Position numbers and translations under genes: made by a program. From IMG/VR virus record IMGVR_UViG_3300032047_002101, positions 1 to 36,883 of that record: a DNA stretch of 36,883 nucleotides; one strand, 5' to 3'. Below the pieces are notes generated by a model that worked only from the letters and a program-made list of their open reading frames with translations, did no database searches and was not told where the DNA came from. The stretch's first letter is position 1. Every line of letters starts with the position of its first letter. Origin of the DNA: a virus. Below, piece by piece: positions 1,388-36,883 of the stretch.

Positions 1388-3015
<1,628 letters not shown>

Positions 3016-3016
<1 letters not shown>

Positions 3017-32006: not shown

Positions 32007-32513
32007 TTGAAGTACGCTACATTAAATGTATTTAAAATATTCATTTTGTGTATCTTAGTTTTAACACCAACCGGTTCTAATGAGATATACGAAGATGACA
32101 ACCTCATTAAGGTCGGTGACGTAACCAACGAAATCCGCATGGGGAAATTTGCAGGTAACCGAAACCTGGCAGTTGGTGTAAAAAATATCCTCGAAGAACT
32201 CCTCTTAGATTTAGATTATGATTTATCAGACCAGGCATCCACACAAGTGAATGTTAGATTGGTCTTTTTTGATATAAAAAATATTGGAACATCGGTTGCG
32301 GTGTTTCATAAAGATGTTTCACTAACGCAGATTATAGCAATTGGTGAACTTGAAGTCAATGGAAAGGTTAGAAAAAGGACTACTCAAAAGGGCCAGTCAA
32401 GAACAATTTCTACCTCTACACTTGTGGTTGCAGAAGATGGTACATTTAATCAACAAACGGCGAGTATAGCGTTGAAAAAACTATGCGAATCAATTATTAA
32501 GGATTTATTATGA
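32007..32513 (+). CDS. Exported YajG-like protein of unknown function, TTG start
   Basis: A 168-residue protein with an N-terminal hydrophobic segment (NVFKIFILCILVLTPTGS) acting as a signal peptide or anchor. The mature part, with GVKNILEELLLDLDYDLSD, VNVRLVFFDI and a closing QQTASIALKKLCESIIKDLL, resembles the layout of YajG-type periplasmic proteins. The start is TTG at 32007, supported by TAGGAG 6 bases upstream; a following in-frame ATG would remove the signal. It starts the exported cluster and couples to the next gene by ATGA. Local base use is less AT-rich (ccaaccggtt, cgaaacctgg) than the neighbours, suggesting recent acquisition. YajG likeness is weak. Confidence 0.7.
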   Translation: MKYATLNVFKIFILCILVLTPTGSNEIYEDDNLIKVGDVTNEIRMGKFAGNRNLAVGVKNILEELLLDLDYDLSDQASTQVNVRLVFFDIKNIGTSVAVFHKDVSLTQIIAIGELEVNGKVRKRTTQKGQSRTISTSTLVVAEDGTFNQQTASIALKKLCESIIKDLL

Positions 32514-34162
32514 AAAAAATTTTATCAATTTTAGTTAGTGTACTTTTTACACTAAGTTCTTTTGGCCAAGGTAGTTTAAACCTTGAACACCAAAGTGGAA
32601 CAATTCAAAAGGTAGGAGATGAATTTGTTATGAAAATTCAGTATTATACTGGTGACCAGGGCGATGCAACTCTTTTACAATTCGATTACGAATACAACAA
32701 CAAATTATTAGAACTAACAGAATTCAATTGGGCTTCAGGTGTACCAAGTGATTATTCTAAAACAAGAAATCAATGGACTGGATACAAATATAACAACAGA
32801 CCAGATACAGAGGCAACCGATATGGATTTACAATATCAATGGTGGCAATCTGAAGCTGGTAATAATTCGTATTCAGCCAATCAAGATTTTAACGTAAACA
32901 GAATCACAGTACAAGGAACAACTGCATGGACAAATGGAAATGTTATTGTAACAATTAAATTTAAAGTTAAGGATAACTTTGGAACAAACTATTCTGATTA
33001 CAGTAATGTAATTGCATTGAACTGGGCAAATATTAAGAAGGCAGATGGTTCACAATTACAAGTAACTAGAAATGGTGATTATAGTTTAGGTAGTATTCAA
33101 GGAGGTAACGCTGGTGATGTAACCTTAAACTTAAAAACAGCAAACACTGCAGGATACGCTGATTATGGATATACAATCAAATATGATGGTGAATCTGTAA
33201 AGACAGGTGATTTTGATGCTGGTGGACAAGCAGTAGTTAGTGGTTTAGAAAACGATAAAATTTATTCAATAGAAGTAAATCTATCAGAACTACCAGAATA
33301 TCTTGATGAAGTAGTAACTGTTGCTGATTTGGCAAAAGTATTCGCTGAAGCAATTGGAGCAGGTTCTGGTCCAAGTGGTACAACTTCAACTTGGGATTAT
33401 CATGTACAGGCTGTAATCGGTGATGTTGTTGGTGATGATAATAAAGTAGATTTTCAAGATTCATATGAAATTATGGCTTATCTACAATCAATAACAACTG
33501 GTAATACAAACAGAATTACTCAGGCAAATGCAACATATGATAAGTGGGGTATTGAAGGAACTTATGGTGATAACACACAAAGTTCTATGTTCCTAAATAC
33601 ATTTACACTTACAGATACAAACCAATCATCTAAAACTATAAACGTTGCACATGGATTAGTAGGAGATGTTAACTTTACACATTCATATGAACCATCAGCA
33701 GAAGGAGCTGCAAAATCAACACAGGCATCTGCAAGAAATAGTATGGGTGTACAATATAGTTCAGTACAAGGTGCTGACCCACTTTATAAAAGTGAAGAAG
33801 CTAACTTGGATTTAGTTTCTGAAATAAAAGATGATGGTACAGTTGAATTTACAATTGAAATGGATGTTGAAAATCTAATTGGTACACAATTCAATGTAAA
33901 ATACAATACAACAGTTCTAACATTAGATAACGTAATCTTTGACACAGGTAATGAGATGACAAACTTCTCAAACATAGATGGGGATAAGATAAGAATTGGT
34001 TCGTTTGACCAAAACTTTACTGCTACTGTTAAGACAGGTACACCATATAAATTAATCTTTACACCAAATGAAGCAATTCAAAATACTTCAGGTTTGATTA
34101 CATTCAAAGTTACTGAAGGTGTAAAGGATGATGGAACACAAGTTAACTTTATTATAAATTAA
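32510..34162 (+). CDS. Large secreted protein with cohesin-like domains and a dockerin-like segment
   Basis: A 550-residue protein with a signal peptide ending in LSSFGQ. The first domain (about 25-185) starts VGDEFVMKIQYYTGDQG.. LLQFDYEYNNKLLEL, the pattern of cohesin-type beta-sandwiches (xVGDxFxvxv... fdl.yd...l.l). Near residues 265-325 lie VTVADLAKVF and AVIGDVVGDDNKVDFQDSYEIMAYL, like the two halves of a dockerin calcium-binding repeat with one extra residue. The C-terminal ~110 residues (ENLIGTQFNVKYNTTVLTLDNV) repeat the cohesin-like pattern. It overlaps the preceding gene by 4 bases and is probably on the cell surface or virion. Domain likeness is by eye and moderate. Confidence 0.68.
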   Translation: MKKILSILVSVLFTLSSFGQGSLNLEHQSGTIQKVGDEFVMKIQYYTGDQGDATLLQFDYEYNNKLLELTEFNWASGVPSDYSKTRNQWTGYKYNNRPDTEATDMDLQYQWWQSEAGNNSYSANQDFNVNRITVQGTTAWTNGNVIVTIKFKVKDNFGTNYSDYSNVIALNWANIKKADGSQLQVTRNGDYSLGSIQGGNAGDVTLNLKTANTAGYADYGYTIKYDGESVKTGDFDAGGQAVVSGLENDKIYSIEVNLSELPEYLDEVVTVADLAKVFAEAIGAGSGPSGTTSTWDYHVQAVIGDVVGDDNKVDFQDSYEIMAYLQSITTGNTNRITQANATYDKWGIEGTYGDNTQSSMFLNTFTLTDTNQSSKTINVAHGLVGDVNFTHSYEPSAEGAAKSTQASARNSMGVQYSSVQGADPLYKSEEANLDLVSEIKDDGTVEFTIEMDVENLIGTQFNVKYNTTVLTLDNVIFDTGNEMTNFSNIDGDKIRIGSFDQNFTATVKTGTPYKLIFTPNEAIQNTSGLITFKVTEGVKDDGTQVNFIIN

Positions 34163-34171
34163 GGAGAAAAA

Positions 34172-34546
34172 ATGAAAAAAGTATTAATATTATTAAGTTT
34201 ATTCTTTGTATTCAGTTGTGTGAAAGACGAAGAATTATATGAGGACCCATTTGTAGAAGTACCAGAATCATTGGTAATAGCTGATGTAGTGGGTATCAAA
34301 CTAGAAAGTGTAATTGTAACTGATAGAGTTGCAATGAATGTTAAATTACCAGTAGATGGGATTTATAGAATTAAAATCAGACATGGAATGAACAATGATT
34401 TGATATCACAAGAAAGAGTTAATGGAACTGAAGGTGATAACATTTTAAAAGTTTATACATCAACTTTAGATAAAAGTGGATATATGATTCAGTTAACTGA
34501 TGAATTCCATAATATATTAGGGAGCGAATCATTCGTAGTACAATAA
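34172..34546 (+). CDS. Lipoprotein with a Bacteroidetes surface-export signal
   Basis: A 124-residue lipoprotein. The signal peptide MKKVLILLSLFFVFSC ends in a lipobox Cys, and the mature N-terminus CVKDEELYEDP fits the lipoprotein export signal of Flavobacteriia (C-x-K-(D/E)2), so it is likely displayed on the outer surface. The rest is a small beta-rich domain (about 30-124) that may be an Ig-like fold (YRIKIRHGMNNDLIS, GYMIQLTDEFHNILG). A clear Shine-Dalgarno AAGGAGA lies 6 bases upstream. The stop is 1 base before the next ATG. It could bind the cohesin-like protein or act in superinfection exclusion (inference). Confidence 0.8.
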   Translation: MKKVLILLSLFFVFSCVKDEELYEDPFVEVPESLVIADVVGIKLESVIVTDRVAMNVKLPVDGIYRIKIRHGMNNDLISQERVNGTEGDNILKVYTSTLDKSGYMIQLTDEFHNILGSESFVVQ

Positions 34547-34848
34547 TGGCAGAAGAAAAAGAAAGTTTTTTTGGTAAATTAAAAAACCAAATAATTGCAG
34601 CAGTTGGTATAATACTAACTACTTTGGGTGGTATTTTTATAGATGAAGTAAAATCATTTATAGGAATCGAAGATGAAGAAAATGCACAAGTTGAAGTTGT
34701 TCAAGAGAACAAACAAGAAGTCAATGTTGAAGGCCCAACTATCGTAGTAAACATACCAGAACAAAAAACAGAAACTAAAACAATAATCAAAGAAGTTAAA
34801 GTTCCTGTTGAAAAGAAAAAAGAAAAAGAACAAGAAATTGATTGGTAA
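34546..34848 (+). CDS. Small protein with one membrane segment and a charged tail
   Basis: A 100-residue protein with one predicted membrane helix (NQIIAAVGIILTTLGGIFI, about 14-32) after a short acidic-basic N-terminus, then an acidic stretch and a long Lys/Glu/Val-rich tail (VVNIPEQKTETKTIIKEVKVPVEKKKEKEQ) that could span the periplasm. It has no cleavage site. The layout fits a membrane-anchored accessory, perhaps i-spanin or holin-like in the lysis timing, but the tail composition fits a spacer too. TAATG overlap with the lipoprotein gene. Confidence 0.65.
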   Translation: MAEEKESFFGKLKNQIIAAVGIILTTLGGIFIDEVKSFIGIEDEENAQVEVVQENKQEVNVEGPTIVVNIPEQKTETKTIIKEVKVPVEKKKEKEQEIDW

Positions 34849-34867: not shown

Positions 34868-35107
34868 ATGAAAGGTTTTAATAAATGGTGGAAAGTAAAT
34901 GGACAAGGTATAGGATTTATACTTGGTATCGTTTATCTTAACGCTTACTTCTTAATATTAGGTGATAGAATTCAAGATGGAGATTTAACTGCAGATTTAT
35001 TGGCAGGTGGATGGATATTACAGTTCTTTGGATTTGCTGTGTGGTATGCATGGCAAATGAGAGTACATGGATGGAGATTACCTAAACACATTAAGGATAC
35101 ACATTAA
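34868..35107 (+). CDS. Small two-helix membrane protein
   Basis: A 79-residue protein with two hydrophobic helices (GIGFILGIVYLNAYFLIL and LAGGWILQFFGFAVWYAWQM) joined by a short polar loop, and basic, Trp-rich ends. AAAGG lies 8 bases upstream of the ATG. Likely inner-membrane; function unknown. Small two-helix proteins in phages include holins, but nothing here is decisive. Confidence 0.65.
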   Translation: MKGFNKWWKVNGQGIGFILGIVYLNAYFLILGDRIQDGDLTADLLAGGWILQFFGFAVWYAWQMRVHGWRLPKHIKDTH

Positions 35108-35136: not shown

Positions 35137-35331
35137 ATGGAAACATTAAAAATGATTTTTACAGAAAAGGCATCAGATTACAAAATAGTAGATGTTATTT
35201 TAAAAGCTTGGATAGCTGGTTTATTGACAATGTGGGCAATCGGAATGGTTGCTATCATTAGTCATCTAATCATGAACCCATCAGCTATGGATAACGCAAC
35301 TTTTGGTATATTTGATACACTAGGTAACTAA
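35137..35331 (+). CDS. Small membrane protein (64 residues)
   Basis: A 64-residue protein with one long hydrophobic helix (VILKAWIAGLLTMWAIGMVAIISHLIM, about 20-46) and an acidic C-terminal tail. The frame starting at 35067 overlaps it but has no hydrophobic core or coupling. GGAGAG lies 12 bases upstream. Function unknown; inner membrane likely. Confidence 0.6.
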   Translation: METLKMIFTEKASDYKIVDVILKAWIAGLLTMWAIGMVAIISHLIMNPSAMDNATFGIFDTLGN

Positions 35332-35423: not shown

Positions 35424-35524
35424 AAAAATTAATTAAGATATTAAAAAAAATAGATAATTGGCTAACTAAGATAGGTTACGATATGTACCCTAACTTAACT
35501 AGTCATATGAAGGACAAAAAATGA
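35420..35524 (+). CDS. 34-residue basic microprotein
   Basis: A frame from ATG at 35420 (ATGA overlap with the previous stop) to TGA at 35522-35524, which overlaps the CsgG-like start. The peptide MKKLIKILKKIDNWLTKIG is an amphipathic, strongly basic helix, then a polar tail. This shape suits a membrane-surface or small antimicrobial-like peptide. It fills the gap exactly, so it is probably translated. Confidence 0.5.
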   Translation: MKKLIKILKKIDNWLTKIGYDMYPNLTSHMKDKK

Positions 35525-36237
35525 AAAACTTACTACTATTGATATGTGTATTTTTAACACATATCACTTTTTCACAAACTGTTGGCAAGATAAAAGCAGA
35601 AACTTATCAAGCAGAATTCGAAAAAAAGAAATCTATCGATGATGTTTCTGATTATTGGGGTGAAACTATTCCAATTGCACTAATCAATATATCTGCATCT
35701 GATGTGGTTTACGAAATGTGGCCAGATTTAAAAGATGCAAGAATAGGATTAGGAGTTACCAATATGGTAATTGAATATTTAGATTGGACAAACAGATTTG
35801 AGTTTGTAGAAGAAAAATCAGAGATTAAAAATAGAATGAAATCTCAATGGGTTGCATCACGAAAGGGTGTTTCACAAAACGAAGTTTATGGTATGGGTAA
35901 AGTCATGTTAGCAAAGTATTTTGTTACAATAGAGATTTATGACTTTTCTGTTTCAGAAGATGAAGTTTTATCACTAAAAGATGGTTCTAAACAAACACAA
36001 ACAACTCGTTTAGGTTTACAAGTTCGTTTCACTAATGCAGAGAATGGTACTTACTTTGTAGGTTCTGGTCTCGGAGAAGCAAATACAGTTAAGACTCAAG
36101 AGGGTTTGCTGGGGTTAGATTTGGAGGAAATAAACTTCAGACAGTCAGCAATTGGAGTGACTACCAGAAAAGCATTAGAAACGGCTTCAGCAAGGATAGT
36201 AGGGAGAATGATAAGAAAAGGGATATTTGAAAACTAA
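35521..36237 (+). CDS. CsgG-like exported protein (curli secretion channel family)
   Basis: A 238-residue exported protein with a signal peptide ending in HITFSQ. The mature part IPIALINISASDVVYEMWPDL..., GLGVTNMVIEYLDWTNRFEFVEEKSEIKNRM follows the CsgG pattern of a conserved strand, then 'lg.g..d.l...l...grF.vver..l', and later RLGLQVRFTNAENGTYFVGSGLGEA and TTRKALETASARIVGRMI fit the barrel strands and closing helix of the family. CsgG is an outer-membrane lipoprotein pore; here the lipobox Cys is missing, so it may be soluble or a different oligomer. It ends 3 bases before the Ser/Gly/Asp-rich protein, a possible export substrate. Confidence 0.7.
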   Translation: MKNLLLLICVFLTHITFSQTVGKIKAETYQAEFEKKKSIDDVSDYWGETIPIALINISASDVVYEMWPDLKDARIGLGVTNMVIEYLDWTNRFEFVEEKSEIKNRMKSQWVASRKGVSQNEVYGMGKVMLAKYFVTIEIYDFSVSEDEVLSLKDGSKQTQTTRLGLQVRFTNAENGTYFVGSGLGEANTVKTQEGLLGLDLEEINFRQSAIGVTTRKALETASARIVGRMIRKGIFEN

Positions 36238-36240
36238 TGA

Positions 36241-36883
36241 ATGAGAAAACTACTATCGATACTTTTATTTCTGTGCATAACACAATTTAGTTATTCACAA
36301 ACCTTCACACAGACGTTTGTAGACAGATGTACTGGTGAGGTACAAGTTGTAACCGCAAACTTCACAAGTGGTTCAGCAATCGTTGCATTCTACAACGAGG
36401 CAAAATTATTTACTTACGAACAATATACAAATGGTGAACTACATCAATGGTTAGTTCAAAAATATGCATGGTGGGCAGCACTTTCACCATGTTCAACTGC
36501 TCAAACCAACGCAACCAACGCTCAAAATACTGCGAATAACGCAACTAACAATACATCAAACGCTACAAATAATACGAACACAAGTGGTTCAAGTGGTTCA
36601 TCTTCAAGCGGAAGTAGTGGAAGTAGTGGTTCATCAGGCTCAAGTGGAAGTGGTTCAGATTCAAGTGGAAGTGGTTCAAGTGGAGGAGATAGTGGAAGTG
36701 GCTCTGATTCGAGTGGAAGTGGTTCTGATAGTGGCGGAAGTGGTTCTGATTCTGGTGGAGATAGTGGAAGTGGTTCTGATGGAGGAGGTGATTCTGGTGG
36801 AGACAGTGGAGGAGACTCAGGTGGAGATAGTGGAGGTTCTGATTCCGATGGAGGAGGAGACTCTGGTGGTGATTCCGATAGTG
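36241..36883 (+). CDS. Secreted Ser/Gly/Asp-rich low-complexity protein, truncated by the window end
   Basis: The frame from ATG at 36241 is open to the last base. It has a signal peptide (LLSILLFLCITQFSYSQ), a compact domain of about 65 residues with two cysteines (DRCTGEV and LSPCSTA) likely in a disulfide, an Ala/Asn/Thr-rich linker (about 88-114) and then a long Ser/Gly/Asp repeat tract (from about 115). Similar short N-terminal domains with a TFVDPCTGE-type motif occur in proteins near the tail genes of Bacteroidetes phages (recalled, unverified). The tract resembles SD-repeat stalks or calcium-binding spacers. Function: perhaps an exported adhesin or structural protein. Confidence 0.75.
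   Translation, partial: MRKLLSILLFLCITQFSYSQTFTQTFVDRCTGEVQVVTANFTSGSAIVAFYNEAKLFTYEQYTNGELHQWLVQKYAWWAALSPCSTAQTNATNAQNTANNATNNTSNATNNTNTSGSSGSSSSGSSGSSGSSGSSGSGSDSSGSGSSGGDSGSGSDSSGSGSDSGGSGSDSGGDSGSGSDGGGDSGGDSGGDSGGDSGGSDSDGGGDSGGDSDS
36583..36883 (+). repeat. Imperfect short tandem repeats encoding Ser-Gly/Asp tract
   Basis: Repeats of AGTGGAAGTGGTTC- and GGTGGAGATAGTGG-like units make up the coding sequence to the window end. The unit shifts from Ser/Gly-rich to Gly/Asp/Ser-rich along the tract. This region is much higher in G than its surroundings and could change length by slippage. Confidence 0.85.

Follow-up and report, generated by a model that had tools for sequence, protein, structure and literature searches.

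Cohesin–dockerin assembly occurs in cellulosomes and in assorted bacterial and archaeal surface proteins. Among phages, a CsgG-family gene next to genes for secreted adhesive proteins, with a PA14 protein among them, is found in the CsgG-CsgF curli cassette of the pelagimyophages (HTVC008M) and Melnitz. Sibling capture has been proposed for the pelagimyophage curli genes (PMC7029224), and the CsgGF of the methylophage Melnitz has been proposed to be a lysis pore (PMC9004378). Phage-encoded cargo of the type IX secretion system (T9SS) is described for Cryophage and termed a unique occurrence by the authors; these proteins carry type A sorting domains, as do proteins presented here, and one has a PA14 domain, but they are reported as separate variable enzymes, the paper does not mention cohesin, and we did not find a CsgG cassette in the part consulted (PMC7468147). 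Our search of the literature on phage cohesin, dockerin and T9SS, which covered subscription journals and preprints incompletely, returned no report of a cassette like the one described below.

The stretch analysed here (the window) comprises 36,883 nt of viral DNA (IMG/VR record IMGVR_UViG_3300032047_002101), and the features of its cassette are collected in Table 1. We consider it reasonably probable that the cassette encodes a cohesin–dockerin scaffold that would be built by the phage on the exterior of the Bacteroidota cell it infects and displayed there, carrying adhesins. Its central protein, F1, has the cohesin fold and the cohesin-X-dockerin order (4fl4, 3kcp) in common with the cellulosome scaffoldins of the CipA/ScaA type, from which it differs in being phage-borne, in the degenerate dockerin of the window, in adhesin cargo that replaces glycoside hydrolases, and in its linkage to a CsgG-like gene and to T9SS or lipoprotein anchoring. 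The pelagimyophage and Melnitz cassette differs in its curlin-repeat amyloid cargo and its hosts, and here no CsgF or CsgE was detectable by single-sequence hhalign.

Table 1 Features of the cassette in the window
Feature	Position	Strand	Basis or remark
F0, secreted short F3 paralogue, CsgG-superfamily-like	32007..32513	+	hhalign; kept in cassette
F1, scaffoldin-like, 550 aa	32510..34162	+	module order: signal peptide, cohesin 1, X-like beta module, dockerin-like, beta segment, linker, cohesin 2
Cohesin 1, F1 residues 20-198	32567..33103	+	Pfam PF00963; VIA-align Z 13.5 to 6kgc_A
X-module-like beta domain, F1 residues 199-262	33104..33295	+	AlphaFold strands; order as in 4fl4/3kcp
Dockerin-like helix pair, F1 residues 263-328	33296..33493	+	model helices; profile match to relatives' canonical dockerin
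Cohesin 2, F1 residues 428-550	33791..34159	+	second PF00963 stretch; 9 model strands
F2 lipoprotein	34172..34546	+	Cys16 invariant; mature start C-V-K-D-E-E; domain similar to T9SS sorting domain
F5, single-pass membrane protein, Trp last	34546..34848	+	conserved, at almost every locus placed between scaffold and F3
Small membrane protein, two hydrophobic stretches, family F16	34868..35107	+	sequence
Small membrane protein, F6-like	35137..35331	+	sequence
F3, CsgG-superfamily outer-membrane secretion-pore-like protein	35521..36237	+	homology through KSB1 intermediate
F4, cut by window end	36241..36882	+	signal peptide, small N-domain, long low-complexity linker

The open reading frame of F1 lies exactly where the original prediction had placed it, and its signal-peptide-like start agrees with the secreted phage protein proposed there. 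Both ends had been suggested to follow a cohesin-type pattern, and two stretches above the cut-off of Pfam Cohesin (PF00963; 30.6 bits vs a cut-off of 24.1) were indeed found, at residues 33-168 and at 33803-34135 nt (residues ~432-542); the same model was matched at E<=1e-3 by 24/40 F1 orthologues. In the AlphaFold model, which was made from a 40-sequence alignment (pLDDT 82), residues 19-198 resemble solved cohesins (best Z 13.5, rmsd 2.6 over 135 residues), and the structure matches listed for this segment are mostly cohesins, so that cohesin 1 is assigned by Pfam and fold and cohesin 2 by Pfam. The top Foldseek rows for the model were the cohesin-X-dockerin fragments 4fl4 and 3kcp; the alignment runs through residue 352 with a high rmsd, indicating a common module order with a different domain placement. 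The assignment of F1 as a secreted phage protein with a cohesin at either end and a dockerin-like middle therefore holds on Pfam, fold and homology. F1 is under purifying selection, as judged from a dN/dS of 0.15 against a 94%-identical relative, and had no match among 50,697 phage records. A tail-fibre reading of F1 was rejected, as its targeting signals are wrong for one and PHROG gave no match.

For the middle of F1, a dockerin half with one inserted residue had been proposed. The motif GDVVGDDNKVDFQD occupies residues 304-317 (33419-33460), with one residue inserted, and a profile-profile comparison of F1 with the T9SS-type scaffolds of relatives gave full-length homology (99% probability, E 1e-18), in which the middle of F1 aligns with their canonical dockerin loop. 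The AlphaFold model has two helices here (residues 271-283 and 315-325), and with this alignment to canonical dockerins a duplicated loop-helix arrangement is conceivable. The structure prediction that had been suggested as a check thus recovered the fold of cohesin 1 and a helix pair in the dockerin region, but the calcium loop of the latter is degenerate. When the ligands D1, N3, D5 and D12 were tallied, a canonical calcium loop was present in 0/40 first-copy F1 orthologues, and Dockerin_1 (PF00404) had no Pfam match in the window F1 at E<=1; the ligands are retained by paralogues in sister phages, and canonical loops occur in the relatives' scaffolds, lectins and PA14 copies. A calcium-binding dockerin in the window F1 is hence judged unlikely; with the ligands of the loop lost, residues 265-325 can hardly be expected to bind calcium.

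Two alternative modes of anchoring were observed. Following the lipobox, F2 of the window begins with a sequence that agrees with the optimal signal for surface export in Bacteroidetes, C-X-K-(D/E)2-X, as established for Capnocytophaga canimorsus (PMC5080379). At least 2 acidic residues at positions +2 to +6 are present in 42/67 F2 proteins, and the signals are weaker in some F2 proteins of other loci. F2 resembles the T9SS sorting domain (hhalign 81%, E 1e-5, compared with <2% for the other cassette families), and the sorting-domain HMM directly matches two F2 proteins. The window F1 lacks a C-terminal sorting domain (TIGR04183/PF18962), whereas the sister scaffolds of ~640 aa have a type A sorting domain of the T9SS at their end (Por_Secre_tail in 29/29, cohesin in 27/29; TIGR04183 above the cut-off in 5/5 tested). 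Among 122 loci around F3, 72 had only F2, 48 only the sorting domain, 2 neither and none both, with ~14 contigs appearing twice (~58 F2 vs 48 sorting-domain loci after deduplication) and some of the 48 representing near-identical phages. In these loci F2 and the fused sorting domain exclude each other, and in the lineage of the window F2 stands in for the domain.

F1 would accordingly be a scaffoldin with two cohesin sockets and a degenerate dockerin plug on one secreted chain, kept at the surface in this lineage with the help of F2, which may be flipped outside by its lipoprotein export signal. The scaffold of the sister lineage has the sorting domain as part of its own chain and would therefore be exported by the host's own T9SS; one of these two routes, T9SS or surface lipoprotein, is the likely way in which F1 is displayed. 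Both the T9SS sorting and the lipoprotein signal point to Bacteroidota hosts, and the window phage presumably infects an aquatic member of this phylum.

Candidate cargo is encoded by the related cassettes. In those of the T9SS type, F4 and F0 are separated by a gene whose product has ~300-994 aa, and the 24 cassette adhesins carry Lectin_C (17), LamG (9) and Pfam Dockerin_1 domains (6), with canonical dockerin loops seen in more of them than Dockerin_1 detects. Such loops were present in 96/456 cassette-adjacent proteins vs 10/723 other proteins of the same contigs, while shuffled-sequence controls gave 11/456 and 9/723, respectively. Furthermore, in many marine contigs F4 is followed by a gene for another F1-like protein (676-908 aa), which ends in a cohesin-like domain and is accompanied by an F2-type lipoprotein of its own; several of these proteins have a canonical dockerin loop, and several one or more PA14 domains. 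Within the window we found no gene for a lectin-dockerin protein, but the window ends inside F4, leaving downstream adhesins out of view; in the closest relative (L011) no second scaffold is in view, and the Lectin_C, LamG and PA14 proteins that form the relatives' cargo include no glycoside hydrolase match. The dockerin-bearing adhesins (C-type lectin, LamG or PA14) of related cassettes may dock onto the cohesins. The original idea of a docking to surface complexes of the host needs revision, as the likely partners of F1, namely the lectin-dockerin, PA14-dockerin and second-scaffold proteins of related cassettes, are instead encoded by the phages themselves.

The remaining cassette proteins may belong to the outer membrane. 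The F3 profile found a KSB1 protein (L143) at E 2e-44, which itself scores 25.7 on PF03783 CsgG (cut-off 20.8). There was no direct Pfam match to PF03783 for F3 of the window, L007, L008 or immuto, and hhalign with shallow profiles gave nothing significant against CsgG of E. coli or of E. coli plus HTVC008M; the AlphaFold model of F3 has a pLDDT of 43, too low for reading a CsgG fold or pore. F0 is related to F3 (hhalign 98.6%, E 8e-16). An assignment of F0 as CsgE or CsgF was without hhalign support, and its weak YajG (Lipoprotein_16) match was below the cut-off. The C-terminus of F4 in relatives reads from its sequence as a predicted outer-membrane beta-barrel ending in Phe or Leu. The F4 linker changes from Asn/Ser/Gly over Asp/Ser to nearly pure Glu for up to ~250 residues before the barrel-like end (e.g. 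L011:11731-13554). We suggest that F3, F0, F4 and the small membrane proteins could form an outer-membrane export or anchoring complex.

A bacterial origin of the cassette was considered and rejected, with F3 found in 1/296 sampled Bacteroidota genomes and on 2 contigs of the GTDB collection. One of these is a 254-kb terminase-bearing contig of a Bacteroidetes MAG (L142 / G001:C291), which looks like a binned phage because it carries a phage terminase together with the cassette; it encodes a further T9SS-sorted protein at 133097-133330. The other, the KSB1 MAG contig L143, has an operon in which F3-, F4- and F0-like genes are consecutive and possibly represents a cellular source of the cassette's outer-membrane part.

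When IMG/VR was searched with F3, 312 stretches were confirmed, of which 80 were kept, on contigs of up to 434 kb. The cassette recurs on about 106 distinct contigs of IMG/VR, and a cultured phage, Flavobacterium phage vB_FspM_immuto, carries it too; its order in relatives is F0 - F1 - F2 - F5 - small membrane proteins - F3 - F4. The flanks vary by lineage between glycosyltransferases, ribonucleotide reductase and the gene of a ~2,200 aa protein, which indicates that the cassette travels as a unit. F0, F1, F2, F5 and F3 are under purifying selection (dN/dS 0.07-0.15, window vs closest relative). On five large contigs the terminase is ~89-320 kb from the cassette, which is thus not part of the packaging region. 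In immuto (160 kb, host Flavobacterium sp. LMO8) the cassette corresponds to gp13-gp19, with proteins annotated as lectin C-type and cohesin domain-containing: gp13 is a lectin with a dockerin-like loop, gp14 is cohesin-like with a dockerin-like region, gp15 combines a cohesin with a T9SS sorting domain, and gp16, gp17, gp18 and gp19 are F5, F3, F4 and F0, respectively. The scaffold of immuto differs from that of the window in being split over two genes and T9SS-sorted, and the window F1 has no BLAST-level match in this phage.

The outcome of a displayed scaffold would probably be a sugar-binding coat on the infected cell, which might capture neighbouring cells or shield the cell from other phages; capturing neighbours, blocking superinfection and aiding lysis are all conceivable purposes. 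More tentatively, the cassette could represent a widespread phage surface organelle in which lectin-bearing scaffolds, T9SS or lipoprotein export and a CsgG-like pore allow infected Bacteroidota to capture sibling cells or progeny virions. It is somewhat doubtful that the same surface scaffold serves solely in receptor masking against superinfection, alongside the adjacent glycosyltransferases. Immediately upstream of the cassette, the window encodes glycosyltransferases, a UDP-glucose-dehydrogenase-like protein and an epimerase, but other lineages have ribonucleotide reductase or the very large protein in place of glycan genes at this position, and the lectins suggest binding rather than masking alone.

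In some lineages genes of lysis type adjoin the cassette (an M15-type peptidase, F17, read from sequence, 3' of F4 in one and the endolysin-like F19 and holin-like F11 at this place in others), which speaks for a role in lysis, as does the function proposed for the CsgGF of Melnitz (PMC9004378). F3, F0, F4 and the small membrane proteins would then open the outer membrane late in infection, and the cohesin and lectin proteins would merely hold debris or virions together. We regard this as improbable, since the most consistent companions, the T9SS sorting domain, surface lipoprotein signal, lectins and dockerins, are not needed by a lysis pore, and the adjoining lysis-like genes vary by lineage while the display genes remain. 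Least probable of all is a virion fibre, with F1 and the adhesins coating the phage particle and binding host or particle surfaces: virions are known to bear lectin and PA14 domains, and the variable adhesin length is reminiscent of receptor-binding diversity, but the distance to the terminase and the signal peptides, T9SS sorting domains and surface-exported lipoprotein, which route proteins outward and away from cytoplasmic virion assembly, argue against it.

If the surface scaffold that we favour is confirmed, phages would use the type IX and lipoprotein export of their hosts to remodel the exterior of the infected cell, and the organelle would be a cohesin-dockerin counterpart of pelagimyophage sibling capture. 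The cassette also suggests a type of cargo that unexplained phage CsgG pores may serve, and new orthogonal cohesin–dockerin pairs would be of use in protein engineering. The question is directly testable, as the cultured immuto carries the cassette.

Additional observations concern the phages compared here. Gp18 of the Pelagibacter phage HTVC008M (L151:10638-11963), which adjoins csgF/csgG, has PA14 and curlin repeats over the Pfam cut-off, in contrast to the literature calling curlin subunits missing in these phages. The window phage encodes a GroEL-like chaperonin at 1394-3016 (PHROG E 8e-176), and immuto and several marine contigs encode a secreted endonuclease-G-like protein close to the cassette (L061:9202-9780, L024:15948-16517).
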